The notes under the pieces are model-generated. The model saw only the letters and a list, made by a program, of their open reading frames with translations. It did no database searches and was not told the origin of the DNA. Positions 9,646-54,270 of a stretch of DNA of 64,000 nucleotides are shown one piece after another. The stretch lies in assembly GCF_003667575.1 (NCBI RefSeq), contig NZ_RCUY01000009.1:124001-188000 (forward strand), given 5' to 3'. This DNA is from Mycetocola lacteus (GTDB taxonomy: Bacteria; Actinomycetota; Actinomycetes; Actinomycetales; Microbacteriaceae). Position 1 is the stretch's first letter. Each line of letters opens with the position of its first letter. Made by a program: the position numbers and the translations under genes.

Positions 9646-10496
9646 GCGCCGCAGTGCCGGCGGCGACCGATCGTCTGGGCCGGATTCGGATCGACGGCGT
9701 GAGTAAGTCATTTGGTACCCGCAGGGTTCTCGATGGGGTGTCCCTGACGGTCGAGCCCGGATCCGTGATCGCACTGGTGGGGCCCTCGGGCTCGGGAAAA
9801 TCCACGCTATTACGGGCGATCAACCACCTGGAAACCATCGATGCGGGCTCGATCACCATCGACGGAAACTATATTGGCTACACCCGTCACGGCGATCGGT
9901 TGTATGAGCTCCGCGAGAGCGAGGTGCTGCGGCGACGCACCGCGGTGGGCATGGTATTCCAGAATTTCCACCTGTTCCCGCACCTCACGGTGCTGGAGAA
10001 TATCGTCATTGCGCCGCTGTCGCTGCGCCGCGCGGACCGACCGGCCGCCGAGGCGCGGGCGCGTGAATTGCTCGCCCGGGTAGGCCTGGCCGAGTATGCC
10101 GAGGCGTATCCGCGGCGGCTCTCCGGCGGCCAGCAGCAACGGGTCGCGATCGCCCGGGCCCTCGCACTCGAACCTGCCGTCCTGCTCTTTGACGAGCCAA
10201 CCAGCGCCCTAGACCCCGAGCTGGTCGGCGAGGTGCTCGCGGTTATCCGTGAACTCGCACACGGCGGTACCACCCTGATCATCGTCACCCATGAGATTGG
10301 GTTTGCCCGCGAGGTCGCCGATCACGTGGTGTTCCTGGACCACGGGAGCATTCGCGAACAGGGCCCGCCGGATGTTGTCCTGGTGAATCCGTCACATGCC
10401 CGTACCCGCGCATTCCTGCGCCACCCCACCGCCACCGAAACCCCCGAATCGGACCATGAATCACCCGCCTCCCCCATCAACGCACCACAAGTATGA
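9642..10496 (+). CDS. amino-acid-type ABC transporter ATP-binding protein
   Basis: A 284-residue ATPase from the ATG at 9642, chosen because it overlaps the permease stop by 4 nt. Walker A is GPSGSGKST, the Q-loop is VFQNFHLFPH, the signature is LSGGQQQRVAIARALA, Walker B is VLLFDEPTSALDPE, and the switch His is in IVTHEIGFA. This is the polar-amino-acid import family (GlnQ/HisP/TcyC-like). It energises uptake with the permease and lipoprotein of the same operon. Confidence 0.92.
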   Translation: MSAAVPAATDRLGRIRIDGVSKSFGTRRVLDGVSLTVEPGSVIALVGPSGSGKSTLLRAINHLETIDAGSITIDGNYIGYTRHGDRLYELRESEVLRRRTAVGMVFQNFHLFPHLTVLENIVIAPLSLRRADRPAAEARARELLARVGLAEYAEAYPRRLSGGQQQRVAIARALALEPAVLLFDEPTSALDPELVGEVLAVIRELAHGGTTLIIVTHEIGFAREVADHVVFLDHGSIREQGPPDVVLVNPSHARTRAFLRHPTATETPESDHESPASPINAPQV

Positions 10497-10508
10497 GGGA
10501 GAAGCATC

Positions 10509-11489
10509 ATGAATATCCGCGCCACACGGCGTCGCCGAGGCCTGATCCTCGGTGCCGCACTCACCGCACTGGGGCTCCTGCTCGCCGGATGCGCCGCCGA
10601 ACCGCGGGCATCGGCACCCAGTACGGGCCCGTTTGATCTGACCACAAAAAACGTGCGGGCCCGGCCCCGCATCGATCCGGTTCCCGAGGCGGTGGCCGCG
10701 CTCCAGGCCTCGGGATTCACCCCCGCAAAGTCCGGGACGCTGACCGTGGCCCATGCACCGTTCACACCCCCGATTCTGTTTCTCGCCGAGGACGACAACA
10801 AGACGATCCTGGGCAGCGACGCCGATTTTGCCCAGCTGATCGCCGATGGGCTCGGGCTCACCTACGCACCCAAATCGGTGTCCTGGGCCGACTGGCCACT
10901 CGGGGTGCAGTCGGGAAAATACGACATCGGAGCCTCAAACATCACCGTGACCGAGGAGCGTAAAGACCTCTTCGATTTTGCCACCTACCGGGACGACGTC
11001 GTCTCCTTTGCGGTCGCCAAGGACAGCGCCATCACCCGCATCAGTGAGGCCAAGGACGTCTCGGGAAAGAAGGTTGTGGTGGGCAGCGGAACCAATCAGG
11101 AAAAGGTGCTGCTGGGGTGGTTTGCCGCCAATGAGGCGGCCGGACTCCCGCCGGGTGAGGCCGTGTACTTTGACGATGTGGCGGCCGCCACCCTGGCCCT
11201 CACCTCGGGCCGGGTGGACGCCACACTCGGGCCCAATGCCACCAATGCGTATCGGGCCGCCACCACCGGGGAAACCAAGCTGGTGGGAGCGATCAACGGC
11301 GGCTATCCGGCCAATGCCGAGATCGGGGCGGTGACCGCAAAGGGCAATGGCCTGGCCGAACCCATCCGACTCGTCCTCAACTCGTTGATCGCCGACGGTA
11401 CCTATGCGAAGGTACTGAAGCGCTGGTCGGTGGAGGTTGAGGGGTTGGATGTGTCTCTGGTGAACCCGCCGGGACTCCCGCGCGAATAG
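10509..11489 (+). CDS. amino-acid-type ABC transporter substrate-binding lipoprotein
   Basis: A 326-residue lipoprotein. A basic N-terminus and hydrophobic core lead to the lipobox LLAGC (cleavage before C28). The rest is a type II periplasmic-binding fold with the GSDADFAQLIADGLGL and ASNITVTEERKDLFDFATY motifs of polar amino-acid binders. It follows the ATPase by 12 bp and has a GAGGGAGAAG ribosome site. It would capture the substrate at the cell surface for this importer. The ligand is unknown; a sulfur-containing amino-acid derivative would fit the adjacent monooxygenases. Confidence 0.9.
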   Translation: MNIRATRRRRGLILGAALTALGLLLAGCAAEPRASAPSTGPFDLTTKNVRARPRIDPVPEAVAALQASGFTPAKSGTLTVAHAPFTPPILFLAEDDNKTILGSDADFAQLIADGLGLTYAPKSVSWADWPLGVQSGKYDIGASNITVTEERKDLFDFATYRDDVVSFAVAKDSAITRISEAKDVSGKKVVVGSGTNQEKVLLGWFAANEAAGLPPGEAVYFDDVAAATLALTSGRVDATLGPNATNAYRAATTGETKLVGAINGGYPANAEIGAVTAKGNGLAEPIRLVLNSLIADGTYAKVLKRWSVEVEGLDVSLVNPPGLPRE

Positions 11490-11503
11490 AGGCGCGACCG
11501 CTT

Positions 11504-11553
11504 ACCCAGGTTGCTGGCTCGACACTCTGGGGTGCCGAGCCGGCTACCTGGGT
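11504..11553. terminator. stem-loop between convergent operon end and dxs
   Basis: A two-level inverted repeat: outer ACCCAGGT/ACCTGGGT (perfect, 8 bp) and inner GGCTCG/CGAGCC. There is no T run on either side, so it is either a weak bidirectional terminator or an mRNA 3'-end stabiliser. Confidence 0.55.
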
Positions 11554-11589
11554 GGTGCTAGTTTCCGGTGACGCTCGTTTCTGCTGACA

Positions 11590-13545
11590 CTACTTGCCGG
11601 TGACCGCGTCGAAGCCGGGGCTCGTGGCCGGGTGCGGGTCCTCGCCGTCCGGACGGGCGACCGGGATGCGGCTGCCGAGTACCTGGGCGACCACGTCGCG
11701 GGCGATCTGCTGGCCGGTCAGCCCGGCATCGGTCAGGATCTGCTCACGCGAGGCGTGATCGATAAACAGGTCGGGCAGGCCCAGCTCGTCTACCGCGGTG
11801 TCCACTCCGGCCTCACGCAGACGCTGACGGATGCGGGTACCGATGCCGCCCACGCGCACACCGTCCTCGAGCGTGATGACCAGGCGGTGGCGACGTGCCA
11901 ACTCCACCACGTCTTCGTTCACCGGGACGACCCAGCGGGGGTCCACGACGGTCGCGCCGATGCCCTGCGCCCGCAGACGCTCGGCCACATCCAGCGCGAT
12001 CGTGGCCATCGGGCCCACGGCGACAATCAAGACGTCCTCACGGTCGCCCTCGGCCAGCACATCGACCCCGCCCTCGGTACGGCGCAGCGCGGCGATCTCC
12101 TCGGGTGCCGATCCCTTGGGGAACCGGATTACGGTCGGGGCGTCATCCACGGCCACGGCCTCGGCCAGCTCCTCACGCACACGAATCGCGTCACGCGGGG
12201 CGGCGATGCGGATACCCGGGACAACCTGCAGGATCGAGAGATCCCACATGCCGTGGTGAGAGGGGCCGTCGGGGCCGGTTACACCGGCCCGATCAAGCAC
12301 AAACGTGACGCCGGCCTTGTGCAGGGCCACATCCATCAGGATCTGGTCGAACGCACGGTTTACAAAAGTCGCGTACATCGCCACCACCGGGTGCAGACCC
12401 GCATAGGCGAGACCGGCCGCGGAGGTCACCGCATGCTGCTCGGCGATCCCCACGTCGTGAACCCGGGTCGGGAATCGCTCGGCAAAGGCGTGCAGACCGG
12501 TGGGACGCAGCATCGCGGCCGTGATCGCCACAACCTTCTTATTCCGGGTTCCCTCGGCGAGCAGGGCGTCGCTAAAGACGCCCGTCCAGCTCTGCTGCGA
12601 GCTCGTGCTCAGCGCACGGCCGGTCACGGGATCGATCTTGCCCACGGCGTGGAACTGGTCATCCTGGTCGTCGCGGGCGGGCTGGTATCCGCGGCCCTTC
12701 TCGGTGATCGCGTGCACGATGACCGGGGCACCGTAGTTCTTGGCCTGGGTCAGCGCCTCCTCCATCGCGTGGAGGTCGTGTCCGTCGATCGGACCGATGT
12801 ACTTAATATCGAGGTTCGAGTAGAGCGCCTCGTTGTTGCTGGCGCGGGAGAGGAACCCGTGGGTGCCACCACGCACGCCGCGGTAGAGGGCACGGCCGGG
12901 AGCGCCCAGCTTGGCAAAGAACTGCTCACTGCTGCGTCGCAGCGAGCGGTAGGACTTCCGGGTGCGGACGTCGTTGAGGTAGCGTGCCATGCCGCCGATG
13001 GTCGGCGCGTAGGAGCGGCCGTTATCGTTGACCACGATGACCATGCGACGCGCGTTGTCGTCGGTCATGTTGTTGAGCGCTTCCCAGGTCATGCCGCCGG
13101 TCAGCGAGCCGTCGCCCACCACTGCGACAACCGCCCGATCAGACTGTCCGGTCATCGCAAATCCGCGCGAGATCCCGTCGGCCCAGCTCAGTGAGCTCGA
13201 GGCGTGTGAGGACTCCACGATGTCGTGGTCGGATTCGCTGCGCTGCGGATATCCGGCCAATCCCCCACGCTCGCGCAGGTGGCTAAAGTCCTGGCGGCCG
13301 GTCAGTAGCTTGTGCACGTAGGACTGGTGTCCGGTATCAAACACGATGGGATCGTTCGGAGAGTCGAAGACGCGGTGGATCGCCAGGGTCAGCTCCACCA
13401 CCCCGAGGTTCGGTCCCAGGTGTCCCCCGGTGAGCGCAACCTTATTGATCAGGAACTCGCGGATTTCCAGGGCCAGCACCTTGAGCTGCGACTCGGTCAA
13501 ACCATCCAGGTCACGGGGGGATGAAATCTTCTCAAGAATCGACAT
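11590..13545 (-). CDS. dxs: 1-deoxy-D-xylulose-5-phosphate synthase
   Basis: A 651-residue ThDP enzyme condensing pyruvate and glyceraldehyde-3-phosphate, the first step of the MEP isoprenoid pathway. It has HLGPNLGVVELT, the ThDP/Mg motif GDGSLTGGMTWEALNN, the transketolase central domain with FVLDRAGVTGPDGPSHHG, and the C-terminal domain. The start MSILEKI at 13545 is preferred over an upstream in-frame codon because AAGGAGT lies directly before it. It is monocistronic and converges with the ABC operon. Only 175 bp separates it from acnA. Confidence 0.95.
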   Translation of the reverse strand: MSILEKISSPRDLDGLTESQLKVLALEIREFLINKVALTGGHLGPNLGVVELTLAIHRVFDSPNDPIVFDTGHQSYVHKLLTGRQDFSHLRERGGLAGYPQRSESDHDIVESSHASSSLSWADGISRGFAMTGQSDRAVVAVVGDGSLTGGMTWEALNNMTDDNARRMVIVVNDNGRSYAPTIGGMARYLNDVRTRKSYRSLRRSSEQFFAKLGAPGRALYRGVRGGTHGFLSRASNNEALYSNLDIKYIGPIDGHDLHAMEEALTQAKNYGAPVIVHAITEKGRGYQPARDDQDDQFHAVGKIDPVTGRALSTSSQQSWTGVFSDALLAEGTRNKKVVAITAAMLRPTGLHAFAERFPTRVHDVGIAEQHAVTSAAGLAYAGLHPVVAMYATFVNRAFDQILMDVALHKAGVTFVLDRAGVTGPDGPSHHGMWDLSILQVVPGIRIAAPRDAIRVREELAEAVAVDDAPTVIRFPKGSAPEEIAALRRTEGGVDVLAEGDREDVLIVAVGPMATIALDVAERLRAQGIGATVVDPRWVVPVNEDVVELARRHRLVITLEDGVRVGGIGTRIRQRLREAGVDTAVDELGLPDLFIDHASREQILTDAGLTGQQIARDVVAQVLGSRIPVARPDGEDPHPATSPGFDAVTGK

Positions 13546-19628: not shown

Positions 19629-19829
19629 GTTTTTCCACTTCTCTTCGCCTTTACCGATCTGAATCGGCGGCCATAGTTTGCAACAATCCGCGCTCAATAG
19701 CAAACCGAGCGACGTTTTTTCCCAGCGTTTTGTCGGGAACACACGCCGCGCCCGCGCGATTACGCGTTTCACCCGGCATTCATGGCACCATTGTTCACAG
19801 GATTTATGACGCCGAAAGAGGCAGGGCAC

Positions 19830-21050
19830 ATGCAGGAATTGAAGGTTGTTGGCATCGAGGATGGGGCCCTCATCGCTGCTGCGGAAAATGGGGACCGCTT
19901 CAAACTGGAAATCGATGAGGTGCTGCAGTCGCAGCTCCGTCGGATGAAGTCGCCGCTCGCGGCGACCCCGAAGATCAGGCCGCGCGAGGTTCAGGCACAC
20001 ATCCGTGCCGGACTCTCCGCCGAGGAGATTGCCGAGCTGACCGGCGCCGATGCCGACTACGTTCGCCGCTTCGAGGGCCCGATCCTGGCCGAGCGCGAGC
20101 ACATGGTTGCCGCGGCACTCAGCGTGCCCGTGGTGGCCGCCTCCGTGCCCGGGACCGAGGAGGGTGAGGCCAACTTCGGTTCGGCCATCCGTGCCCGCCT
20201 GGAATCTCTTGAGGCCGAGGGTGAGCGTTGGACCAGCTGGAAGGACGAGGAGGAGGGCTGGATTGTCAAGCTGTCCTTCACCGCCGCCCGGGTTGAACAC
20301 GATGCCCGCTGGACCTTCGATCCCAAGCGCCACGTCCTGAGCCCGCACAACAGCGAGGCCGTGACCCTCTCCAAGCAGGGCGAGATTGCCGCCCCCCTGA
20401 TCCCTCGTCTGCGCGCCGTGGAGCCCACCGTGGATCCCAGCGAGGCACGGTTTAGCACCGACGCGTTTGAGACCGGGGTCATCGCCCCGATTACCCCGGC
20501 GGCCCCTACCGAGGGCCCCACGGAGTCGGTCGCCAGCCTGATGGGACAGCGCCGGGTTGAGCCCGCCCACGCGGTGGAGTCACACCGTCGCGGACCCAAC
20601 GCCGCCGCCGATGCCGCAATCAACCGCGCCGAGGATCGTGGCGATGAGGGCAACCAGCACACCGCCGACCTGCTCCAGGCGCTGCGTAAGCGTCGTGGAG
20701 AGCGCGAGAACCGTGCCGAGCGGGAGTCGCGTCTGGAACACGACCAGCGTCAGGTGGAGCCCGCCGCGGACGCCGACACCGGGTTTGGACTGCGTCCGGT
20801 GGATGTGCCGCTGGAAAACTTTGAAACCCTGACCGGCGAGGTGCCGGTTCAGACCGAGGCCCCCGTCGCGGACACGCACACTGCCTCGGAGTCCGACACG
20901 TCGGGCCACACGGCATCGGCGCCGAACATCGAGCACGAGCCCTCCACACACGCGGATAACTCAACCGGCGCGATCCGCAACCGTCGCGGCCGTAAGGCCA
21001 TGCCGTCCTGGGACGAGATCGTCTTCGGCGCCCGCACCGAGGAAGACTAA
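19830..21050 (+). CDS. sepH: cell-division protein SepH (DUF3071)
   Basis: A 406-residue protein. The N-terminal DUF3071 domain (about 1-170: MQELKVVGIEDGALI, then the helix-turn-helix-like PREVQAHIRAGLSAEEIAELTG) matches SepH. In Streptomyces and mycobacteria SepH binds FtsZ and promotes filament assembly at the division site. The C-terminal half is long, charged and probably disordered, ending in KAMPSWDEIVFGARTEED, a conserved SepH tail. The start at the ATG at 19830 is chosen from the family N-terminus. The gene is divergent from DUF4193. Confidence 0.9.
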   Translation: MQELKVVGIEDGALIAAAENGDRFKLEIDEVLQSQLRRMKSPLAATPKIRPREVQAHIRAGLSAEEIAELTGADADYVRRFEGPILAEREHMVAAALSVPVVAASVPGTEEGEANFGSAIRARLESLEAEGERWTSWKDEEEGWIVKLSFTAARVEHDARWTFDPKRHVLSPHNSEAVTLSKQGEIAAPLIPRLRAVEPTVDPSEARFSTDAFETGVIAPITPAAPTEGPTESVASLMGQRRVEPAHAVESHRRGPNAAADAAINRAEDRGDEGNQHTADLLQALRKRRGERENRAERESRLEHDQRQVEPAADADTGFGLRPVDVPLENFETLTGEVPVQTEAPVADTHTASESDTSGHTASAPNIEHEPSTHADNSTGAIRNRRGRKAMPSWDEIVFGARTEED

Positions 21051-21146: not shown

Positions 21147-22157
21147 CTACGCCGACTCGCGAATGATCAGCTCGGCCGGAACGATGGTTTCCACCTCCGG
21201 GGACTCCCCCGCCAGAATCTCCAGGAGCCGCTGGGCGATCAGCTCGCCCTGCAGCCCCGAGGGCTGACGCACGGTGGTCAGCGCGGGGCTCACCTCGGTG
21301 GCCACCGAGGAGTCATCAAATCCGACCAGGGGAAGATCCTCGGGCACCATGATGCCCGCGCTGGTCAGCGTGCGCAGGGCCCCGCGCGCCATCAGGTCGC
21401 TGGCCACAAAGAGCCCGTCGATCCCGCCACGCTGCAGGAGCCGCTCCATCGCCAGTTCCCCGCTGTGCTCGGAAAAGTCACCGATTTCGATCAGGGTGTC
21501 CGGCAGGTCCGCCGCGCGCAGGGCCTCCTGAAATCCGGTCAGTCGGTCGAGGCCGGCGGGCATGTCCTGGGGACCGGTGATCGTGGCAATGCGCCGCGCC
21601 CCGCGCTCGATCAGGTATTGGGTGGCCATGCGGGCACCCTCGGCGTTATCGATGTCCACAAAATAGTCCCCCACGGTGCCGCGCATCCGATTGGGGCGCC
21701 CACCAAACACGACGGGAAGGGCGTCGGCGATGCGGTCCACGAAGCGGTCCCGTGCATGGTGGGAGATCACAATCGCCCCATCCACGTTGCCGCCACGCAG
21801 GTAGGCGGTAGTTTTGTCGCCGTCATCATCGGTGGCAATAAAGATGTTGAGTACGTAATCGGATTGACTCAGTCGACGATGCACCCCGGAGACCACGGTG
21901 GCAAAAAACGGATCGCCGAAAAATCGACTGGTGTCTTCGGGGACCACCAGCGCGATCGCCTTGGTCTGGCGCCGAACCAGGCTGCGGGCAGCCTGGTTCG
22001 GCACATAGGAGAGCTCGGCGATCGCACGTTCCACGGCCTCACGGGCCGCCGGACTCACCGCCTGGGCACCGTTAACCACACGGGAAACGGTGGAGCGAGA
22101 AACGCCCGAGCGGGCGGCGACCGCCTCGAGTGTGACCGGGGGTTGTGCGGGGCCCAC
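21147..22157 (-). CDS. LacI-family transcriptional regulator
   Basis: A 336-residue regulator. The N-terminal HTH is VTLEAVAARSGVSRSTVSRV (about 8-27), with the hinge helix around YVPNQAARSLVRRQ. A periplasmic-binding-like sugar-sensing domain follows. GTG start with AAGGAGG 6 nt upstream. It is the last gene of a five-gene minus-strand sugar locus, 15 bp after the beta-glucosidase. It probably represses this locus by binding the two operators at 27038-27084 and is released by a sugar, perhaps a beta-glucoside. Confidence 0.9.
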   Translation of the reverse strand: MGPAQPPVTLEAVAARSGVSRSTVSRVVNGAQAVSPAAREAVERAIAELSYVPNQAARSLVRRQTKAIALVVPEDTSRFFGDPFFATVVSGVHRRLSQSDYVLNIFIATDDDGDKTTAYLRGGNVDGAIVISHHARDRFVDRIADALPVVFGGRPNRMRGTVGDYFVDIDNAEGARMATQYLIERGARRIATITGPQDMPAGLDRLTGFQEALRAADLPDTLIEIGDFSEHSGELAMERLLQRGGIDGLFVASDLMARGALRTLTSAGIMVPEDLPLVGFDDSSVATEVSPALTTVRQPSGLQGELIAQRLLEILAGESPEVETIVPAELIIRESA

Positions 22158-22172
22158 TCGGTGCCTCCTTGA

Positions 22173-23654
22173 CTAGTGCGTGTGCAGGTACAGCGGCACA
22201 CCCGTGTACGTCGGAACGGACAGGGTCCGGTTCCGAATGATCCGATGATACTCCATGGCACTGTCCTTGAGCGTGCGCTGCTGGGTGTCGTAATCCACCC
22301 GCACGATACCGAAGCGCTTCCGGTATCCCCAGGCCCACTCATAGTTATCCACCAGGGACCAGTAGAAGTACCCGCGTACGTCCACCCCAGCCTCGGCCGC
22401 GTCCAACACGGCACCCAGATGTGACCGGAGGAATGCCGTGCGTTCGACATCGTGCACGCGCTCCTGACCGTCCTCGATCACCACCTCGTCATCGTAGGCT
22501 GCACCGTTTTCGGTGACAAACAGGACGGTGTCGGTGGGCCGCGCATACTCCTCCCACACCCGGGTGAGCACGCGGGTCAGTCCCTCGGGCTGAACCTCCC
22601 AGCCCTGTCCGGTGCGAGCAAGACCCCGCTCGTGCGGGTGGATGTCAGCCGGTGCCGGCCAGGGGGCCCGAATCGCGCGATCGGTGGGCGCCTCAAGCTC
22701 GATCGGCGGGACGGCCGGGGCGGTACCCGACACAAACTCGCCCTGGTAGTAGTTCACGCCCAGGGTGTCAATCGGCGTCGAAATCACGTCGAGGTCACCC
22801 TCGTGCACCGCCGCCTCCAGACGCTTCAGCGCCAGCGGTTCCTCGGTACGAATGTCGGCCAGGATGTCGGCCGGGTAGACGCCGCGGAACACCGGATCGA
22901 GGAACCAGCGGTTGAACTGACCGTCGAGCTTGCGGGCGGCATTGCGGTCGCCCTCGGCGTGCGGATCAACCGGGTCGGCCACGGTCAGGTTGAGGGTGAT
23001 CCCCAGGTTTAGGGACGCATCGCGGGCGCGCAGCTCGCGCACCACCTGCCCGTGCCCCAGCAGCAGGTGGTGCGCGGCGAGCAGCCCCTCACCGGCGTCC
23101 TGGTGTCCGGGGGCGTGTGCCCCGGCGATGTGGCTGAGGAACGAGGAGCACCAGGGCTCATTCAGGGTCGCCCAGTTGGTAACCCGGTCCCCCAGCGCAT
23201 CGTGGACCGAGAGGGCGTACTCGGTGAAGAGATCGGCAGACTCGCGCACGGTCCAGCCACCGCGCTCCTGGAGGGCCTGAGGCATGTCCCAGTGATACAG
23301 GGTCAGCCAGGGCATAATGCCGGCCTCCAGGAGCTCATCCACCAGGCGACTATAAAAGTCGATCCCCGCCGGATTGACAGCACCCGCATCCGGCCGTACC
23401 CGCGACCAGGAGGTCGAGAAGCGGTAGGACTCCAGGCCCAGGCCCTTCATCAGCGCCACATCCTCGCGATAGCGGTGGTAGTGGTCGCAGGCCACATCGC
23501 CATTATCGGCATTGATGACAGCACCCGGCACCCGGGCGAACTCGTCCCAGATCGACGCGGTGCGTCCATCCTCAAAGGCGGCACCCTCGATCTGGTACGC
23601 GGCCGTGGCCGCACCAAAAACGAAGTCCCGTGGGAAGGAGCGTGGTGATGACAT
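22173..23654 (-). CDS. GH1 family beta-glucosidase
   Basis: A 493-residue glycoside hydrolase family 1 enzyme of normal length. It has the N-terminal FPRDFVFGAATAAYQIEG signature, acid/base E166 in TLNEPW, and nucleophile E382 in FVTENG. The conserved SLVDNYEWAWGY segment that shapes the sugar-binding site is near the C-terminus. No signal peptide, so it is cytoplasmic. It would hydrolyse beta-glucosides imported by the ABC transporter encoded just upstream in the same operon. It may act on cellobiose, laminaribiose or aryl glucosides; specificity cannot be read directly. Confidence 0.93.
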   Translation of the reverse strand: MSSPRSFPRDFVFGAATAAYQIEGAAFEDGRTASIWDEFARVPGAVINADNGDVACDHYHRYREDVALMKGLGLESYRFSTSWSRVRPDAGAVNPAGIDFYSRLVDELLEAGIMPWLTLYHWDMPQALQERGGWTVRESADLFTEYALSVHDALGDRVTNWATLNEPWCSSFLSHIAGAHAPGHQDAGEGLLAAHHLLLGHGQVVRELRARDASLNLGITLNLTVADPVDPHAEGDRNAARKLDGQFNRWFLDPVFRGVYPADILADIRTEEPLALKRLEAAVHEGDLDVISTPIDTLGVNYYQGEFVSGTAPAVPPIELEAPTDRAIRAPWPAPADIHPHERGLARTGQGWEVQPEGLTRVLTRVWEEYARPTDTVLFVTENGAAYDDEVVIEDGQERVHDVERTAFLRSHLGAVLDAAEAGVDVRGYFYWSLVDNYEWAWGYRKRFGIVRVDYDTQQRTLKDSAMEYHRIIRNRTLSVPTYTGVPLYLHTH

Positions 23655-23679
23655 GGTGATCTCTTTCTTGAGAAACGAA

Positions 23680-24567
23680 CTAACCCTTGACCGCTCCTGC
23701 CATGATCCCACTGACCAGCTGCTTGCCGGTGAAGACAAACAGGACAAGCAGCGGAATCGTGGACAGTAGCACTCCGGCCAGCACGATCGAATAGTCCACA
23801 AAGTGGTTCGACTGCAGCAGCGAGAGGGCCACCGGAAGGGTCGGGTTTTGACGATCCAGCACGATAAACGGCCAGAAGAAATTGTTCCAGGAGGAAATGA
23901 AGGTAAACAGCGCCAGCATCGCCGCTGCCGGACGGGCGGCGGGCAGACCCACGGTGAGGAAGGTGCGGAAGGAACTGGCACCATCCACCCGGGCAGCCTC
24001 CAGGAGCTCGTCGGGCACCGCCTGACGCAGGTACTGGGTCATCCAGAACACCCCGAACGCGCTGGTCAGCGCGGGTACGATAATCGCCCCGATGGTGCCG
24101 GTCCAGCCCAGGTCCGAGAACAGAATGTACAGCGGAACAACACCCAGCTGGGTCGGCACGGCCATGGTCGCGATCACAAAGATCAGCAGCACATTGCCGC
24201 CGCGGAACTTGAGCTTGGCAAACGCCCAACCGGCCAGCGTGGAGAAGAAAACCACCGAGAGCGCGATCAGTGCCGAGCTGTAGAAGGAGTTCCAGAGTGC
24301 CAGCCAGAAGTTCACCGCCGGGTCGTTGATCACCGTGAGGGCGTTGTCGATGAAGTTTCCGCCAGGAATCCAGGAGGGGTTACGAATGGTCTGAGCATCC
24401 CCCGAACCGATCAGGAACGACCACCAGAACGGGAACAGGCTCCCGGCAATCATCGCCCCGAGAATCCCGTAGACGATCCAGCCGGGACGGGAGCCGCGCA
24501 CGGTTCGGCGGCGGCGCGGCTCGGGGGCCGGGGTCGCGCGAGACGGCGACAGGGTGGGTGCGCTCAT
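23680..24567 (-). CDS. carbohydrate ABC transporter permease (MalG type)
   Basis: A 295-residue membrane protein with a basic Pro/Arg-rich leader, six membrane segments and the EAA loop ELLEAARVDGASSFRTFLTVGLP. It has the CUT1 second-permease ending IMAGAVKG. It starts at an ATG that overlaps the stop of the first permease (ATGA) and has AGGAGG upstream. It forms the heterodimeric channel with the MalF-type partner. No ATPase gene is present in the locus, so a shared MsiK-type ATPase encoded elsewhere must energise it. Confidence 0.92.
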   Translation of the reverse strand: MSAPTLSPSRATPAPEPRRRRTVRGSRPGWIVYGILGAMIAGSLFPFWWSFLIGSGDAQTIRNPSWIPGGNFIDNALTVINDPAVNFWLALWNSFYSSALIALSVVFFSTLAGWAFAKLKFRGGNVLLIFVIATMAVPTQLGVVPLYILFSDLGWTGTIGAIIVPALTSAFGVFWMTQYLRQAVPDELLEAARVDGASSFRTFLTVGLPAARPAAAMLALFTFISSWNNFFWPFIVLDRQNPTLPVALSLLQSNHFVDYSIVLAGVLLSTIPLLVLFVFTGKQLVSGIMAGAVKG

Positions 24568-25634
24568 CGCGATACCTCCTGAGATGTCGAACTGGGTGCG
24601 GCCGCGGCGGACATGGCGGCCCGGTCGCGTGCGGCGATACGGCGCTCGCGCCGGGTGGGCGGACGGTGCCCACCCTCGTCCCGAACCAGATTGCGGGTGA
24701 CAAACAGGTTGATCACACCGATCAGCAGGATGATGATGAACAGGATCCAGGCCAGCGCCGCGGCACGACCGAAGTTCCACTCCCCCCAGCCGGTGTTGTA
24801 GAGGTAGAGCGAGATGGTCAGCCACTGGCTGTTGGGTCCTCCGGTGCCGGGCCGGTCATACATGCGCGGCTCGTCGAAGATCTGCAGACCACCAATAGTC
24901 GAGGTGATGATCACAAAGATCAGCGTGGGCTTGAGGCTCGGCAGGGTGATGGAGAAGAACTGGCGGATGGGGCCGGCACCGTCCACGGTGGCTGCCTCGT
25001 AGTAGTCCCGCGAGACCGCCTGCATCGCGGCCAGCAGAATCAGGATGTTGTAACCGGTCCAGCGGAAGTTCACCATCGTGGCGATGGCGACGTGGCTGAA
25101 GAAGGCGTTGGAGTGCCAGGGAATCGGGTCCAGGCCGATCGTCTGGATCAGGGTGTTGATGATGCCGTAGCGGTCACCAAACATGTTGCTGAAAATCAGG
25201 GCGACGGCCACCGGGGCCATCACGTAGGGCACCAGCACACCCATCCGCCAGAAGGTCTTGGCACGGATGTTTTTGTCCAGCAGTGAGGCGATGAACACGG
25301 CCACGATCAGCTGCGGAACGCTGGAGAGCAGGAAGATGCTGAAGGTGTTGCGCAGGGCCAGCCAGAACTTGGGCTGGCCGAGCACGTAGGCATACTGCTC
25401 AAACCCGATGAACTCACCGGTGCCGCGCACCAGGTCCCACTCCATGAAGGAGATGACCGCGGTAAAGGCGATTGGGAAGAGACCCACGACCGCGAACAGG
25501 ATAAAAAACGGGGAGATGTAGAGGTAGGGGGAAAGCTTCAGATCCCAGCGGGACAGGCCGCCGCCGAAACCCACGCGGCGGGTGGCGCGGGGGCGGGATC
25601 GGGCGCCGCCGGGCGCGGTGGTGGAAGAGGACAC
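24564..25634 (-). CDS. carbohydrate ABC transporter permease (MalF type)
   Basis: A 356-residue membrane protein with a basic leader, then YLYISPFFILFAVVGLFPIAF and further membrane segments. The EAA loop is YYEAATVDGAGPIRQFFSITLP, and the tail is hydrophilic and Arg-rich. GTG start with AGGAGC upstream. It is paired with the MalG-type gene by a 4-nt overlap. A 74-bp gap with a strong hairpin separates it from the substrate-binding protein gene. Confidence 0.92.
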   Translation of the reverse strand: MSSSTTAPGGARSRPRATRRVGFGGGLSRWDLKLSPYLYISPFFILFAVVGLFPIAFTAVISFMEWDLVRGTGEFIGFEQYAYVLGQPKFWLALRNTFSIFLLSSVPQLIVAVFIASLLDKNIRAKTFWRMGVLVPYVMAPVAVALIFSNMFGDRYGIINTLIQTIGLDPIPWHSNAFFSHVAIATMVNFRWTGYNILILLAAMQAVSRDYYEAATVDGAGPIRQFFSITLPSLKPTLIFVIITSTIGGLQIFDEPRMYDRPGTGGPNSQWLTISLYLYNTGWGEWNFGRAAALAWILFIIILLIGVINLFVTRNLVRDEGGHRPPTRRERRIAARDRAAMSAAAAPSSTSQEVSR

Positions 25635-25669
25635 GATGCTCCTAGACAGAACGTTTGACGGGGAAAGAG

Positions 25670-25698
25670 GGTGGGGCGGCTATCTCGCCGCCCCACCC
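25670..25698 (-). terminator. intercistronic hairpin between binding protein and permeases
   Basis: GGTGGGGCGGC with its perfect complement GCCGCCCCACC and a 6-nt loop, 11 bp after the binding-protein stop. Its place inside the operon suggests partial termination or 3'-end protection, so the binding protein is made in excess over the permeases. Confidence 0.6.
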
Positions 25699-25708
25699 GG
25701 GTACCTCG

Positions 25709-26983
25709 TTACTTAATGGCCTTGACCTCGGAAACCCACTGCTTCCAGGAGGTGTCCGCGTCCTGCGTACCCTCCTCGACGCGGGTGAGCGCCTTCTGCA
25801 TCGCATCGTTGATCTGGAAGTACTTCTCGCCCTTGAACGGCGACACGGTGACCGCCTGAGCTCGCTCGGAGAAGATCGACCCGATCGGGGCGTTGTTGAA
25901 GTACTCGTTGGTGGCCTCAAGCAGGGTCGCGTTGGTGAGAGCCTCGTTCTGGCTCGGGAAGTTGCCGGAGTTGCTAAACGCCTTGATCTGCTGCTCGGGA
26001 GCGGTCAGCCAGTCGGCGAGCTCCTGGGCGGCCTCGACGTTCTTGCCCTTGGCGGGGACGGTCAGGTAGGAACCGCCCCAGTTTCCACCGCCACCGGGGA
26101 AGACATTGGCAATGTCCCAGCCGGTCACATTCTTGGCGTTACCCTCGATCACACCGAGCATCCATCCGGGGCACAGCATGGTTGCGAAGGCGCCGTCGGC
26201 GAGTCCGGCGTTCCAGTCATCGGACCACTGTCCGAGCTTTGCCGACTGGGTCTTGCTGGCCGCGAGTACCTCATCGTAGATCTTGCGAACATCGGGGTTA
26301 TCGGTCGCGGTGACGTCGCCGGTCTTGGGGTTCTCATAGGCCGCCTCGACCTGGTTGATCATGCCCTGGTAGGTGCCGCCGGCGGAGTCGAAGAACGGCT
26401 TGCCGGTCTTGGTGCTATACTCGTTACCCACCTCGAAGTACTTGTCCCAACCGCCGGTCAGCAGCGCGGTGACCTCGGCACGGTCGGTGGGCAGCCCCGC
26501 CTCGGCGAACAGGTCGCCGCGGTAGCAGATGGCCTCGGGTCCGATGTCGGTGCCGTATCCGATCAGGTTCTTGTCGGAGTCGGTGGCGGCGTTGACCTTC
26601 CAGTCCAGCCAGCGATCGTGCAGCTTCTCGGGCACCGGGGCCAGCATGTCCGAGTACTTCATGACCTCGGGCAGCCAGTCCACCTCGATTGCCTCGATGT
26701 CCGCCAGACCGGACTTGCCGAGCTTCTGGAAGTAGTTTGCTCGGGCGTCGTTGCTGGTCGCCGCCCGGTTGTGCACAACCGTAACGTTCGGGTGGGCGTC
26801 GCTGTACTCCTTGAGCAGCGCATCGGTGTAGCCAAAGTCGTTAAACGTGGCCACGGTCAGGGTAATCTTGCCGTTCCCCGATCCCGCCTCGCCGCCGTCA
26901 CTCGCGCAGCCGGCCAGGACCAGTGCGGCGGCGGATACCAGCGCAACGGCGCCCGCACTCTTGCGGAAAGCACTCTTGTTCAC
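25709..26983 (-). CDS. carbohydrate ABC transporter substrate-binding lipoprotein
   Basis: A 424-residue extracellular solute-binding protein of family 1. The signal is MNKSAFRKSAGAVALVSAAA with the lipobox LVLAGC (Cys at about 26). The mature part has the ITLVWATFNDF-like first strand and a conserved CYRGDLFAEAGLP segment. The GTG at 26983 is chosen over the GTG at 26989 because the AAGGAG site overlaps the latter. It is first in the operon and probably captures oligosaccharides, possibly beta-glucans given the neighbours. Confidence 0.9.
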   Translation of the reverse strand: MNKSAFRKSAGAVALVSAAALVLAGCASDGGEAGSGNGKITLTVATFNDFGYTDALLKEYSDAHPNVTVVHNRAATSNDARANYFQKLGKSGLADIEAIEVDWLPEVMKYSDMLAPVPEKLHDRWLDWKVNAATDSDKNLIGYGTDIGPEAICYRGDLFAEAGLPTDRAEVTALLTGGWDKYFEVGNEYSTKTGKPFFDSAGGTYQGMINQVEAAYENPKTGDVTATDNPDVRKIYDEVLAASKTQSAKLGQWSDDWNAGLADGAFATMLCPGWMLGVIEGNAKNVTGWDIANVFPGGGGNWGGSYLTVPAKGKNVEAAQELADWLTAPEQQIKAFSNSGNFPSQNEALTNATLLEATNEYFNNAPIGSIFSERAQAVTVSPFKGEKYFQINDAMQKALTRVEEGTQDADTSWKQWVSEVKAIK

Positions 26984-27037
26984 AATCACTCCTTCGTGGT
27001 GGTGGGGTGAGCTTCATCGCTCTGGATTGAGACGCTG

Positions 27038-27051
27038 TGAGAGCGCTCCCA
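27038..27051. promoter_or_regulatory. LacI-type operator O1
   Basis: TGAGAGCGCTCCCA, an almost perfect palindrome around the central CG typical of LacI/GalR-family operators. It is 55 bp upstream of the binding-protein start. Confidence 0.8.
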
Positions 27052-27070
27052 ATCGGTGCCCCCGATCCTA

Positions 27071-27084
27071 TGAGAGCGCTCCCA
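27071..27084. promoter_or_regulatory. LacI-type operator O2
   Basis: An identical TGAGAGCGCTCCCA, 33 bp (about three helical turns) from O1, so two repressor dimers would bind the same DNA face. Confidence 0.8.
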
Positions 27085-27327
27085 ACTAAGTCAACTCGGG
27101 GTCGACGACCCTCCCGATTTTGGATGGCATTACCCTCTCCCCGTGCGTCAATTTTGGGCCGCCTAATCGACTCAAGAACGAGCCGCCTCGACGCCTCCCG
27201 CGGCGCCTTCAGACGATCGTGGTCATCCCGCAATTTCGCCAAATCAGCCAGTTTGTAAACCGGGATGAATATACGAAAATAGCCCGATATTCCGCGGAAT
27301 TCCAAGGTTTTCGAATCGGGTGGAAAT
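27085..27327. other. intergenic stretch between sugar operon and beta-helix gene
   Basis: Part of a 439-bp gap between divergent genes. It is more AT-rich toward 27240-27330 than the surrounding genes. I see no conserved ORF, and the short frames across it lack family resemblance. It must hold the promoter of the sugar operon (minus strand) near the operators, though no clear -35/-10 pair stands out. Confidence 0.5.
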
Positions 27328-27364
27328 TTACTTGTTGACAGGTAAGTAAGTAAATCGCTAGCCT
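27328..27364 (+). promoter_or_regulatory. promoter with overlapping inverted repeat for the beta-helix gene
   Basis: -35 TTGACA (27335-27340), 18-nt spacer, -10 TAGCCT (27359-27364). An inverted repeat TTTACTT (27328-27334) / AAGTAAA (27348-27354) flanks the -35 box, with a GTAAGTAAGTAA direct repeat inside. The layout suggests repression by a dimeric regulator other than the LacI protein. Confidence 0.6.
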
Positions 27365-27422
27365 GCACCTGTCGACGCCGAAGTCGATGAAACGCCCCTC
27401 ACATTTGTTCAAGGGAGAACAC

Positions 27423-29948
27423 ATGCGATCCAAATTATTGCGTGAAAAAAATGGGCCAAATTTAGCCGTGTCGGCCGCCGCGATTCTTGCGTTGGCAGCG
27501 GCCGGAACGATCGTCACGGCACCCGCCGCGCACGGTGCCGATCCACTCTTTGGTCCCAACGTCACGATCTTTGACGAAAACTGGAGTGTGGACGCGATTA
27601 ACTCCGCTCTTCAGGCCGCCTCCCACGAGGGAGAATTCAGCCTCAAGCGCCACCAGTTCTTCTTCGCCCCCGGCACCTACGGCGTGAACAACAACGCCGA
27701 CAACCCCCTGGCCGCGACCAACATCATCAACTCGGAACTCGGCTACTACCAGTCGGTCTCCGGGCTCGGGGCCTCCCCCGACGATGTGCTCATCAACGGG
27801 GCGATTCACGTCGAGCCCGAGCGAGTGTGCGAGGCGAACCCCTGGGACTGCCAGCAGCCGGGCTCGCTCACCAAGTTCTGGCGGTCGATGAGCAACCTGG
27901 CGTTCAACCCGATTCAGCAACCGGTCGGAGTGGATGCGACCCGCCCCTTCCCCAGCGGAATCACGGCCCCGCACCAGATGCGCTTTGCGGTCTCGCAGGC
28001 GGCACCGCTCCGACGCATTCACATCAAGGGTGACCTGACGGTGTTTGGCCGCGTGGGCGAGTATGCCAGCGGCGGCTACCTAGCCGACAGCAAGGTCGAC
28101 GGTCAGATCGTTACCGGATCCCAGCAGCAGTGGTTCACTCGAAACTCCGAGGTGGGAACCTGGGAGGGTGGCGTTTGGAACAACGTGTTCTCCGGGGTCA
28201 CCAACGCCCCGGCCACCGACTTTGGCCAGCCCCGCGCCGGCGGCGTCGGCGTGACCACCAACGTCGATAAGACCCCGGTTTCCCGCGAGATTCCGTTCCT
28301 GTACAAGGACGGCAACAACTTCAAGGTCTTTGTCCCCAAGGCCCACACGAACTCCACCGGCGCCAACTGGTCCACCGATGCGTCGGCCGGACAGTCCCTG
28401 CCGATTAGTGACTTCTACATCGCTAAGGCTGGCGACACGGCCGCATCCATCAACGCAGCCCTCGCCTCCGGCAAAAACCTCCTGCTGACCCCCGAGGTGT
28501 ACTACCTGAACGCCCCGATCAAGGTCACCCGGGCCAACACCGTGGTCCTGGGTCTCGGTTACGCATCGCTGGTACCGAACAACGGCACCGCGGCCATCGA
28601 GATTGCCGACGTTCCCGGCGTGAAGCTCGCGGGAATCACCGTGGACGCACACACCAAGAATTCCGACGTGCTGGTTCAGGTGGGCCCCCGGGGTGCCACC
28701 GCCGCCGAGGTGGCGAACCCCACCACCCTGTCCGACGTCTTCATCCGTGTGGGTGGCCCCTGGGCCGGAAACGCGACCACCTCGATCGAGGTCAACACCC
28801 CGAACACCCTCCTCGACCACATCTGGGCCTGGCGTGCCGACCACGGTGACGGTGTTGACTGGCACACCAACGTGGGCGACCACGGCGTGGTGGTCAATGC
28901 GGATAACGTGACCGCGACCGGACTGTTTGTGGAGCACTACGGCAAGAACCAGGTGATCTGGAACGGCAACAATGGCCGCACCATTTTCTACCAGAGTGAA
29001 CTCCCCTACGATCCGCCCACCCAGGCCGACTACATGGACGGCACCCGGCTGGGATACTCCTCCTACCGGGTGGCCGACACCGTGACCAGCCACCTGGCGC
29101 AGGGTATGGGTGTGTACTCGTTCTTCGATGACACCCGGAACAACGGCAACCACGTGTACGCCGAGAGTGGTGTTCAGGCACCGCAGAACGCCAACGTGCG
29201 CTTCGAGTCGCTGACCTCGGTGTTCCTCAACGGTACCGGCGGTATCAACCACGTCATCAACGGCACCGGTGCCCAGGTCAAGGGTGGTTCCCCTGCCACC
29301 ATGACCGCGCAGGTGGTGTCCTACCCCGGCGTGGATCGCAGTGCCCCGACCGTCTCGATCACCGCGGACCCCGCGGCGCCGGGCCCCAACGGTTTCTACA
29401 CCAAGAAGGTCACCCTCACGGTGACGGCCTCGGATGACTTCCTTCCGGCACCCCGGGTCGAGTACCGCTTCCTGTCCGCAGGAACCGTTGCAACCAAACC
29501 GGCCGCCCGGGTCGAGTCGGTGGCCCTGGCCGCCGCCGTCCCGACCGAGGACGCTGCCCAGGATGAGGTCCCTGTCGAGGACGACACCGAGTGGATTCGT
29601 GCCGAGGGTCCGATCGTGCTGGGGAACGGTGACCACAGCGTCGAGGTGCGCGCGGTGGATGCCGCCGGAAACATCTCGGCCAGCGCCAGCTGGTCCGGAA
29701 AGGTTCAGGTTGCCGTAGATGCGGAGACTCCGGACCCCGGCACCCCCTCGGTTACCCCGACCCCGGTCACCCCGGGTGACGGCGGCGCCGCAACCCCCGG
29801 CGTGATCGCCGCGCCGGGCGCTCAGCCGGGCGGAGGTCTCCCCCAGACCGGTGCCGCCGGTCAGGCGGGCGCGATCATCGCGCTGCTGCTGATGGCCGCG
29901 GGTATCGCCCTCGGTGCCGTGCGTCGCGCGCGGGCTCAGCGAGGCTAG
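27423..29948 (+). CDS. secreted, LPQTG-anchored beta-helix protein (GH55/pectate-lyase-like fold)
   Basis: An 841-residue protein from the ATG at 27423 (AAGGGAGAAC upstream). The signal peptide ends at AAHGA (about residue 39). The body (about 40-630) has two right-handed beta-helix-like halves and segments such as FFAPGTYGV, LADSKVDGQIVTGSQQQW and LLLTPEVYYLNAPI. It resembles a Streptomyces family that I recall being annotated as adenylyl cyclase or coagulation factor 5/8-type, but the fold looks like a polysaccharide hydrolase. A possible Ig-like domain (about 635-780), Pro/Thr linker, sorting motif LPQTG (about 806-810), membrane helix and RRARAQRG tail follow. It is probably wall-anchored by sortase. 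Beta-1,3-glucan is a plausible substrate given the neighbouring beta-glucosidase and importer. Confidence 0.75.
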   Translation: MRSKLLREKNGPNLAVSAAAILALAAAGTIVTAPAAHGADPLFGPNVTIFDENWSVDAINSALQAASHEGEFSLKRHQFFFAPGTYGVNNNADNPLAATNIINSELGYYQSVSGLGASPDDVLINGAIHVEPERVCEANPWDCQQPGSLTKFWRSMSNLAFNPIQQPVGVDATRPFPSGITAPHQMRFAVSQAAPLRRIHIKGDLTVFGRVGEYASGGYLADSKVDGQIVTGSQQQWFTRNSEVGTWEGGVWNNVFSGVTNAPATDFGQPRAGGVGVTTNVDKTPVSREIPFLYKDGNNFKVFVPKAHTNSTGANWSTDASAGQSLPISDFYIAKAGDTAASINAALASGKNLLLTPEVYYLNAPIKVTRANTVVLGLGYASLVPNNGTAAIEIADVPGVKLAGITVDAHTKNSDVLVQVGPRGATAAEVANPTTLSDVFIRVGGPWAGNATTSIEVNTPNTLLDHIWAWRADHGDGVDWHTNVGDHGVVVNADNVTATGLFVEHYGKNQVIWNGNNGRTIFYQSELPYDPPTQADYMDGTRLGYSSYRVADTVTSHLAQGMGVYSFFDDTRNNGNHVYAESGVQAPQNANVRFESLTSVFLNGTGGINHVINGTGAQVKGGSPATMTAQVVSYPGVDRSAPTVSITADPAAPGPNGFYTKKVTLTVTASDDFLPAPRVEYRFLSAGTVATKPAARVESVALAAAVPTEDAAQDEVPVEDDTEWIRAEGPIVLGNGDHSVEVRAVDAAGNISASASWSGKVQVAVDAETPDPGTPSVTPTPVTPGDGGAATPGVIAAPGAQPGGGLPQTGAAGQAGAIIALLLMAAGIALGAVRRARAQRG

Positions 29949-30005: not shown

Positions 30006-31178
30006 CTAGCCGCGGCCCGGCGGGGCCCAGGCCCCGAGGGTAATCCACGGCACCAGCACCTCGTCCTCGGTGAGGGAACCGTGCTGGCCCACCATTCGCC
30101 GCGAACTCTGATCCGTCGGTCGCGAATCGTAGTAGGCGATGCGCTTGCGTGCGGCCACCAGAATGTCGCCAATCCGGGGTGCGACCTCGGGTATCACCGT
30201 GCCAAACAGGCCCGCCGCGATCGCCTCCTCCCGGGAGAGCACCCAGGCGCGCTCCCCTTCGCTCTCCTGCCAGGCACCGAGGGTCGCAGCCCGTCGCTCG
30301 GGGGAAACACCCGCGTCAAAGTAGAGGTGCCGCATCCGAGGCTCCCCGCCGATCAGGCCGATCCCGGCCACCAGGTCGGGATCCTGATCAAAGAGGACGT
30401 GCGCATAGTCGGGGACATCCACGATGCCGTGGTCGGCGCTCAGGGCGATGCCCACGCCGGACCCCACACGCGCATGCAGCTTGCGAACCTCGGCGTCGAG
30501 ATCCTCGAGCGCGGCCAGCCAGCGCTCATCGGCCACGCCGAACCGGTGGGCGATCTGATCAAGCTCAGGGACATAGAGGTACACCAGTGCCCCGGGGGTT
30601 TCGGCGAGTTTAACCGCCTGTTCGAAGCGCTCGGCGATGCGGTCCGCGGGAACATAGGTGGCACCGCGCAGGATTGCCCGGGTCATGCCGCTGGTGGCAT
30701 ACTTCCCGGTGCCCACGGCGAAGGGACGCAGACCCAGCCGGCCGGCGTGTTCAAAGAGCGGCTCGCGGAGCTGCCAGGTTTCGGGAACCATCCGCTCATC
30801 CCAGCCGGTGAGTCCGTTAACGATGCGATTGTGTTGAGCATCGCGCATCTCATACCCGACCACGCCGTGCTCCCCGGGCCAGGCACCGGTCATGATCGCG
30901 GTGAGGCTAGCCGCGGTGGTGCTGGGGAACACCGATTGCAGGGTGGGAAACTTCTGAGCCGTCAAAAAGCGCGCATAGGGCTTGGCCGCACGCAGCTGCT
31001 GCGCACCCAGTCCATCTACCACGATCAGGATGGCCGACTGGACCGGACCGAGGGGCACACCGGGCATCGCCGCGGGCGTCGGCAGGCCCGTTTCGGGGTG
31101 CAGAGTGGCGACAAGATTCGGCAGGATATCGGCTTGGCTGCGGGAAACGTCGGTGCGTGTCGGTAACATTGAAGGCAT
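30006..31178 (-). CDS. nucleotide pyrophosphatase / alkaline phosphatase superfamily protein
   Basis: A 390-residue type I phosphodiesterase (NPP family) protein. The metal-binding Asp is in AILIVVDGLG. The nucleophile Thr is in QSVFPSTTAASLTAIMTG, followed by PGEHGVVGYE. Further metal ligands are in YVPELDQIAHRFG and SADHGIVDV. It probably hydrolyses phosphodiester or pyrophosphate bonds of nucleotides. No signal peptide is evident. The start is uncertain (ATG 31178 or 31169); the longer frame runs into the parC promoter. It is divergent from parC, as is common in actinobacteria. Confidence 0.82.
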   Translation of the reverse strand: MPSMLPTRTDVSRSQADILPNLVATLHPETGLPTPAAMPGVPLGPVQSAILIVVDGLGAQQLRAAKPYARFLTAQKFPTLQSVFPSTTAASLTAIMTGAWPGEHGVVGYEMRDAQHNRIVNGLTGWDERMVPETWQLREPLFEHAGRLGLRPFAVGTGKYATSGMTRAILRGATYVPADRIAERFEQAVKLAETPGALVYLYVPELDQIAHRFGVADERWLAALEDLDAEVRKLHARVGSGVGIALSADHGIVDVPDYAHVLFDQDPDLVAGIGLIGGEPRMRHLYFDAGVSPERRAATLGAWQESEGERAWVLSREEAIAAGLFGTVIPEVAPRIGDILVAARKRIAYYDSRPTDQSSRRMVGQHGSLTEDEVLVPWITLGAWAPPGRG

Positions 31179-31266
31179 CGGGTTAAGTGTGCCATAGAAG
31201 GCATGGTTACCCGGCTCCCATCCGCCCTCGCGCCGTTCTCCTCGCGCGGCCATCCGAAACTATGGA

Positions 31267-53949: not shown

Positions 53950-54270
53950 AACACTCTCCGTTCGGACGTATCTCAAATGGCTTTCGGGGCGAATTCGGCT
54001 GAATCACGACCCGATATCGGAGGGATCTCCGACGCCGATTGGGGAGAGCATGCTGAAGAAAAATGAGCGGTGTGCTGCGGGGTCAAGACACGGTCATGGG
54101 GAGAAGGTAGGCGCGAATGCTGGGTCTGTGCTCGAGGTACACCTGATATCCCATGCATGTTCGGAGGCGACAGCGCGGCGGGCCTCAGGCGCACGATGCG
54201 GGCCTGGACACGCCCGTCCCCTAAAATTGGGCTGATCGATTCACGATCCCCGAACCGAGGAGTATTTTCC
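53950..54270. other. intergenic region between subtilase and UPF0114 genes
   Basis: 321 bp between divergent genes with no recognisable ORF. A palindrome TCGGAG-GGA-TCTCCGA near 54016 lies upstream of the protease gene. TAAAAT at 54222-54227 is a candidate -10 for UPF0114, and GAGGAG (54257-54262) is its ribosome site. No clear -35 boxes. Confidence 0.45.

Follow-up and report, generated by a model that had tools for sequence, protein, structure and literature searches.

What does it mean for regulation when a surface glucanase gene and a sugar-uptake operon stand back to back on a bacterial chromosome? The question is raised by a locus of Mycetocola lacteus on contig NZ_RCUY01000009.1, of which a stretch of 64,000 nucleotides was analysed (the window; positions without a prefix are window positions). 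Genes for a LacI-family regulator, a glycoside hydrolase family 1 (GH1) beta-glucosidase, and a CUT1 importer are transcribed here away from the gene of a secreted 841-residue protein with an LPQTG motif. This layout was part of the original prediction and agrees with the coordinates and with the Pfam and NCBIfam families. The same prediction took the whole for a single polysaccharide utilisation locus. The enzyme half of that idea holds, in that the protein belongs to glycoside hydrolase family 55 (GH55) and keeps its catalytic acids, whereas the co-regulation half is only partly supported, since the two Mycetocola promoters carry different operators. The explanation that we consider fairly likely is that the GH55 protein is a wall-anchored inverting beta-1,3-glucanase whose gene belongs to a BgrT-like TetR regulon and lies beside a separately switched CebR-type operon. 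Gene identities, catalytic residues, the sorting signal, and the operators with their conservation were computed; from these we infer the activity, the product range, the anchoring, the binding of the TetR protein to the sites as a repressor, and the effector.

The 841-residue protein consists of a signal peptide (recognized by eye), a double beta-helix at residues 43-635, an immunoglobulin-like (Ig-like) region at about residues 716-757, a Pro/Thr-rich linker, and a sorting signal. Pfam and NCBIfam give no match on its catalytic part. A comparison of the beta-helix with GH55 laminarinases had been proposed, and the best PDB sequence match of residues 43-635 is a solved GH55 structure, 4pew (E 2.6e-149), with 269 of 541 aligned residues identical (49.7%). 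Four distinct PDB sequences are matched, each titled 'Putative secreted protein', and excerpts of PMC10637969 identify 4PEW and 4TZ1 as SacteLam55A. The published SacteLam55A residues were mapped through the alignment, in which the expected letter is found at 13 of 13 reference positions. The window protein and 50 homologues make up 51 aligned rows. Among the catalytic, subsite -1, and aromatic-block positions, 10 of 11 are retained in the window protein, each of them in 51 of 51 rows. They include the general acid E526 and its partner Y529 (Glu502 and Tyr505 in SacteLam55A), the water-activating Q192, S216, and E504 (Gln174, Ser198, and Glu480), the subsite residues W470, D473, and H505 (Trp446, Asp449, and His481), and the aromatic block F152, W468, and W470 (Phe152, Trp444, and Trp446). 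Acidic residues in the carbohydrate site, on which the original prediction had made an enzymatic role depend, are retained, and this favours an enzyme. Judged from the alignment, the window protein is a GH55 beta-1,3-glucanase with predicted activity. It shares the general acid, the water-activating Gln/Ser/Glu, and the aromatic block with SacteLam55A, an exo-beta-1,3-glucanase of Streptomyces sp. SirexAA-E. In contrast to SacteLam55A, it adds the Ig-like region, the linker, and the LPQTG anchor, and it has Leu for Thr149 and Gly and Tyr for the plus-subsite aromatics Tyr194 and Trp196, respectively. A predicted structure of residues 39-773 (AlphaFold, four-row alignment) was discarded at a predicted local distance difference test (pLDDT) score of 48.7.

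Behind the LPQTG motif come a hydrophobic stretch and an Arg-rich tail. In a genome-wide scan with PF00746, the signal reaches 24.5 bits and is over the cut-off; in a single-protein scan it reaches 17.8 bits, under the cut-off of 20, and TIGR01167 gives 14.6 bits, under 15.9. The features of a sorting signal are all present, namely the signal peptide (by eye), the LPxTG motif, the hydrophobic stretch, the basic tail, and a sortase in the genome. The original prediction had proposed a check for a class E or D sortase gene; the window genome has one PF04203 match, which NCBIfam places in class E (234.3 bits against a cut-off of 160). Among solved structures, 5uus is the best match of this sortase and SrtE1 (5cuw) the third, and its neighbourhood, named by eye, reads rhomboid, sortase, glutamine-amidotransferase, and PASTA-kinase. 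The GH55 protein is predicted to be attached to the cell wall through LPQTG by the class E sortase. Outside the window, a sorting signal is visible by eye at the C-terminus of 7 of 50 distinct GH55 homologues: LPQTG and LPGTG in two Mycetocola proteins, and LASTG, LAATG, LASTG, LSATG, and LARTG in the others. In titles and abstract openings, no report of a sortase-anchored GH55 protein was found among the matches listed; excerpts of PMC3544764 mention a single LPXTG protein for one species of Cellulomonas and, independently of it, GH55 for a second species.

A palindromic element, TTTACTTGTTGACAGGTAAGTAAGTAAA, lies upstream of the GH55 gene and is also found before GH55 in M. saprophilus, where one base differs near the end, and in M. 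tolaasinivorans. The proteins encoded there are 97% identical to the window protein over residues 1-841 (M. saprophilus NRRL B-24119) and 76% identical in the best segment, residues 43-766 (M. tolaasinivorans). The element contains a predicted TetR-type operator, and the 18-base-pair (bp) consensus used for comparison, TTACTKACNNGTMAGTAA, was derived from other genera and chosen after some of the sites were known. At up to two mismatches from this consensus, the window genome has three sites (control 0): before GH55, before a GH3 gene, and in the gap between tetR and an SBP_bac_5 gene. The GH3 gene with its own site encodes 846 amino acids and no visible signal peptide. The site in the tetR gap faces a divergent operon of SBP_bac_5, permease, ATPase, and GH3 genes. 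The same three sites are found in M. saprophilus (G098; control 0) and in M. tolaasinivorans (G160; control 0), which has another before a large surface protein. A fourth Mycetocola genome, G017, which has no GH55 catalytic match, has the tetR site alone (control 0). With a strict half-site pattern, the GH55 site alone is found, in two of the four genomes.

Among 299 genomes of the family, 64 match the GH55 protein, 51 of them on the catalytic part and 13 not. Stretches were fetched for 48 catalytic matches in 46 genomes (L040-L087) in addition to L003-L005; fragmentary matches (G276, G150, and G261) and a second copy of the L003 region (L088) were left out, and L040 repeats L004, which leaves 50 distinct loci among the 51. 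A related palindrome is present upstream of GH55 in 16 of the 51 loci (one duplicate), compared with 0-3 at random places of these loci in five draws. With the exact pattern TTACTKACNNNTNAGTAA, 9 of 14 genomes have sites, 19 in total, and the reversed control gives 0. Seven of these sites are at GH55 and 12 elsewhere: five between tetR and GH3, two before GH3, one before tetR, one before a secreted GH3-CBM11 protein, one before a large surface protein, and two (L135 and L140) beside no clear sugar gene. Most of the TetR and GH3 neighbours were named by resemblance, and Pfam was applied to the TetR of L142, the protein of L136, and the window-genome genes. With one mismatch allowed, the motif occurs in 33 of the 299 genomes, comprising 21 of the 51 genomes that have GH55 and 12 of the 248 that lack it (p 1e-10). 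When genomes with a close GH55 are set apart, the motif is found in 19 of 22 of them versus 14 of the 277 others (Fisher p 2e-18). Neither p-value is corrected for kinship, the limit of the close set, 52% identity, was drawn by hand, and the motif stems in part from these genomes. Two further observations concern single genomes. A TetR-type site at L145:8719-8736 (G160:C17) precedes a surface protein with SdrD_B/SpaA domains at 8839-12801 and is not present in the other three Mycetocola, and two TetR-type sites of G173 (C1:489169 and 489914) are 745 bases apart.

According to excerpts of PMC4746261, BgrT TetR regulators in bifidobacteria have palindromes of 18-22 nucleotides beside the beta-glucosidase gene bglX. 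In Mycetocola, a TetR regulator with an 18-bp palindrome likewise adjoins a beta-glucosidase gene, and by analogy it looks like a regulator of the BgrT kind. The likeness lies in the TetR regulator, the 18-bp palindrome, and the adjoining beta-glucosidase and transporter genes. In contrast to the bifidobacterial regulons, the predicted Mycetocola regulon also holds the distant surface GH55. Among solved binding proteins, the family-5 binding protein of the regulon has matches of up to 167 bits, including 1zty (chitin oligosaccharide binding protein), and it matches 4jsd and 2o7i, a Thermotoga beta-glucan-binding protein, at 149 bits. In titles and abstract openings, no report of TetR control of a laminarinase in this family was found among the matches listed, and the excerpts of PMC10229575 contain nothing on TetR control.

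In the proposed mechanism, the secreted GH55 enzyme, anchored at LPQTG by the class E sortase, would cut beta-1,3-glucan at the surface into glucose and short oligosaccharides, as an inverting beta-1,3-glucanase that is probably exo-acting like SacteLam55A. Its gene would be repressed mainly by a BgrT-like TetR protein whose own gene lies at another place. This TetR protein would also control that gene, the divergent operon of the family-5 (Dpp-type) binding protein, ATP-binding cassette (ABC) components, and GH3, and another GH3 beta-glucosidase, which would be intracellular. GH55 thus probably shares one dispersed regulon with uptake and GH3 hydrolysis, and surface cutting, uptake, and final hydrolysis would be spread over three chromosomal places. 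The adjoining CUT1-GH1-LacI operon would form a cellobiose/beta-glucoside system of the CebR type that has operators of its own and is switched separately; it may import some of the GH55 products. A GH16 gene is present in all four Mycetocola genomes. In the window genome, its product (L203:4944-7490, G000:C21) has a GH16 match and three F5/8 type C matches, and the 12-kb stretch of the gene contains no TetR-type site. The GH16 protein could be an endo-cutting beta-1,3-glucanase partner.

The genes of the adjoining operon are tightly packed on the minus strand, with that of the binding protein first, then two permease genes, GH1, and LacI; the GH1 beta-glucosidase has no visible signal peptide. 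The binding-protein gene and the GH55 gene are divergent, with a gap of 433 bases between them. No equivalog model reaches its cut-off on the LacI-family regulator, which is likely CebR-like to judge from the boxes and the context. Both CebR-type boxes in the window are one base off TGGGAGCGCTCCCA, and this type of box is the CebR consensus of Streptomyces in excerpts of PMC4898821. A search of the window with TGNGAGCGCTCNCA at up to one mismatch returns these two matches only; 3 of 100 window shuffles also gave two. In M. tolaasinivorans, two boxes with a spacing of 33 bases precede the binding-protein gene, one of them an exact TGGGAGCGCTCCCA and the other differing from it at one base. In this species and in the window species, the outer box is placed between -35-like and -10-like hexamers (by eye). 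One further exact CebR-type site of the window genome, C14:446462, was set aside as chance since it sits in a coding open reading frame (ORF) of 1487 residues. The binding protein is closest to 5ixp (E 2.2e-108) and also matches 8bfy, named cellobiose-binding (E 1.4e-70), and because of this resemblance the operon looks like a cellobiose/beta-glucoside importer. CebEFG and BglC are the gene names of the CebR-controlled cellobiose systems of Streptomyces. The likeness to these systems comprises the TGGGAGCGCTCCCA-type boxes, the CUT1 binding protein and permeases, and the GH1 enzyme. In contrast to them, the LacI gene is the last of the operon here, and the genome has two boxes and one site within a coding ORF only.

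Several observations weigh against parts of this account. The Mycetocola GH55 site is weak, its two mismatches from TTACTKACNNGTMAGTAA both falling in the same half. The stricter pattern TTACTKACNNNTNAGTAA gives no site in the window genome or in M. saprophilus. The motif at one mismatch is missing in 3 of the 22 genomes with a close GH55 and in 30 of the 51 with any GH55, so that TetR-type control of GH55, as read from the motif, is confined to one clade. The assembly that holds the window is 8.95% contaminated; G098 and G160 (1%) show the same three sites. In addition, CebR-like palindromes precede GH55 in 4 of 48 loci from other genera. L005 has one at L005:1626, and L049 has both palindrome kinds upstream of GH55, the CebR-like one at L049:10814. 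L070 has a full TGNGAGCGCTCNCA match, TGGGAGCGCTCTCA, at L070:6157-6170, shortly upstream of the likely GH55 start, and L087 has four CebR-like palindromes between GH55 and a divergent LacI gene (L087:13090-13210). The pattern RGAGCGCTCY is found upstream of GH55 in 5 of 51 loci versus 0-1 at random places in ten draws, and one of the five is M. saprophilus, where the boxes belong to the facing gene. These palindromes suggest LacI-type control of GH55 in some genera, and the gene may have changed regulator between genera. Moreover, the CUT1-GH1 operon stays the neighbour of GH55 in 3 of 3 Mycetocola with GH55, which favours some link. Given this linkage and the palindromes elsewhere, both regulators may jointly control the Mycetocola GH55 gene through the 433-base gap.

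Two more such points concern the protein. Thr149, a residue of the proposed proton relay of SacteLam55A, is replaced by Leu in the window protein; the fungal enzyme has Glu there. Across the 51 rows, this position is Leu in 42, Thr in 8, and Pro in 1, so Leu is a trait of most relatives and not a defect of the window protein. Class E sortases generally prefer LAxTG, and the signal here is LPQTG. In four Mycetocola genomes, 26 anchor loci were found, and the 11 that were classified are eight LPxTG, three LSxTG, and no LAxTG. The chances seem about even for the broader picture, in which a dispersed TetR regulon for beta-1,3-glucan, with surface GH55, a family-5 importer, and GH3 glucosidases, extends over a clade of the family, the Mycetocola enzyme, anchored to the wall by a class E sortase through LPxTG, feeds two separately gated uptake systems, and other genera use CebR-like operators.

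A first alternative keeps the single utilisation locus: acting on the intergenic region that they share, the LacI regulator would control the importer operon as well as the GH55 gene facing it. The two CebR-type boxes in the gap between the divergent genes agree with it, as do the five genes adjoining GH55 in all three Mycetocola that have it (M. saprophilus, L003, and M. tolaasinivorans, L004, besides the window species), and the CebR-like palindromes of other genera, including the four beside the divergent LacI gene of L087. We nevertheless find this alternative unlikely. From the binding-protein start the boxes are 49-95 bases away in the upstream direction, and from GH55 about 340-385 bases. 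In M. tolaasinivorans, the DUF3071 and phosphodiesterase genes flank both modules in swapped order and GH55 does not face the binding-protein gene; both boxes go with the latter, and three patterns tried found no CebR-type box before GH55. Outside Mycetocola, no homologue of the operon GH1 (E 1e-8) was found near GH55 in the fetched stretches, some of which are shortened by contig ends.

These arrangements also bear on the idea that the island is a hotspot and that GH55 is close to the CUT1 operon by accident. DUF3071 and the phosphodiesterase enclose both modules, whichever of the two comes first, and GH55 is not beside the operon GH1 in the fetched loci of other genera. The idea remains doubtful, however, as the modules stay adjacent in both arrangements and each of them is predicted to act on beta-glucosides. 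It is rather improbable that the enzyme is meant for an attack on fungi or hyphae and not for nutrition. Beta-1,3-glucan is a main polymer of fungal walls. Mycetocola is reported from mushroom-associated environments and inactivates tolaasin, according to excerpts of PMC13364761 and PMC9659194. The partners predicted for the regulon, however, namely glucosidases and an importer, fit a role in feeding. Action on another substrate, such as that of a diglycosidase on plant glycosides (EC 3.2.1.168), an activity that occurs in GH55, is very unlikely: the replacement of Thr149 by Leu and of the stacking residue Tyr194 by Gly speaks for it, but the aromatic block and the equivalents of Trp446, Asp449, Glu480, and His481 are all retained, and the predicted regulon contains beta-glucosidases.

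Table 1. Features of the GH55 locus, its flanking genes, and the sortase gene of the same genome
Feature	Position	Strand	Basis
DUF3071 flanking gene (presumably SepH)	19782..21050	+	Pfam
LacI-family regulator	21147..22157	-	Pfam/NCBIfam LacI
GH1 beta-glucosidase, 494 amino acids	22173..23657	-	TIGR03356, 554 bits (cut-off 478.5)
CUT1 permease, MalG/CebG type	23680..24567	-	BPD_transp_1
CUT1 permease, MalF/CebF type	24564..25634	-	BPD_transp_1
CUT1 solute-binding lipoprotein, CebE-like	25709..26989	-	SBP_bac_8 and structure matches
CebR-type box TGAGAGCGCTCCCA	27038..27051	.	Pattern search
CebR-type box TGAGAGCGCTCCCA	27071..27084	.	Pattern search; -35-like TTGACT and -10-like TAGGAT on either side (by eye)
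Palindromic element TTTACTTGTTGACAGGTAAGTAAGTAAA upstream of GH55	27327..27354	+	Comparison of Mycetocola upstream regions
Predicted TetR-type operator, two mismatches from TTACTKACNNGTMAGTAA	27332-27349		Over -35-like TTGACA 27335-27340
Secreted GH55 protein, 841 amino acids, predicted LPQTG-anchored	27423..29948	+	ORF, PDB sequence search
GH55 catalytic region, residues 43-635	27549..29327	+	PDB 4pew match
E526 codon, aligned with general acid Glu502 of SacteLam55A	28998..29000	+	Alignment; Glu in 51/51 rows
LPQTG sorting motif, then hydrophobic stretch and Arg-rich tail	29838..29852	+	Sequence, PF00746
Phosphodiesterase flanking gene	30006..31253	-	Pfam
Class E sortase	G000:C9:20139-20531 (L038:7279-8598)		PF04203, NCBIfam

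Relatives of the GH55 protein carry misleading names, as the original prediction had suspected for adenylyl cyclase and coagulation factor. Among 18 plasmid records with a relative, three are named 'adenylyl cyclase' and one 'coagulation factor 5/8 type', so that 4 of 18 are affected. Five others are named 'discoidin domain-containing', two 'glycoside hydrolase family 55', and seven have another name or none. The name 'discoidin' may be correct for a further domain. Elsewhere in the window, positions 50290-53976 encode a 1228-residue subtilase-family protein (Peptidase_S8) with an apparent signal peptide, and positions 60436-61866 have a cutinase match over the cut-off and a PKD match under it.

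No report of Mycetocola with glucan was found in the titles and abstract openings of the papers matched. Fungal walls are a likely natural glucan source for a mushroom-associated genus, and Mycetocola may use fungal glucan. Placing GH55 in a TetR regulon beside a separately switched CebR-type operon yields a testable prediction of how mushroom-associated actinobacteria regulate the use of beta-1,3-glucan. It also indicates that co-regulation cannot safely be read from the closeness of genes in loci of this kind. Moreover, the GH55 protein lets the handling of LPxTG proteins by a class E sortase be examined directly.

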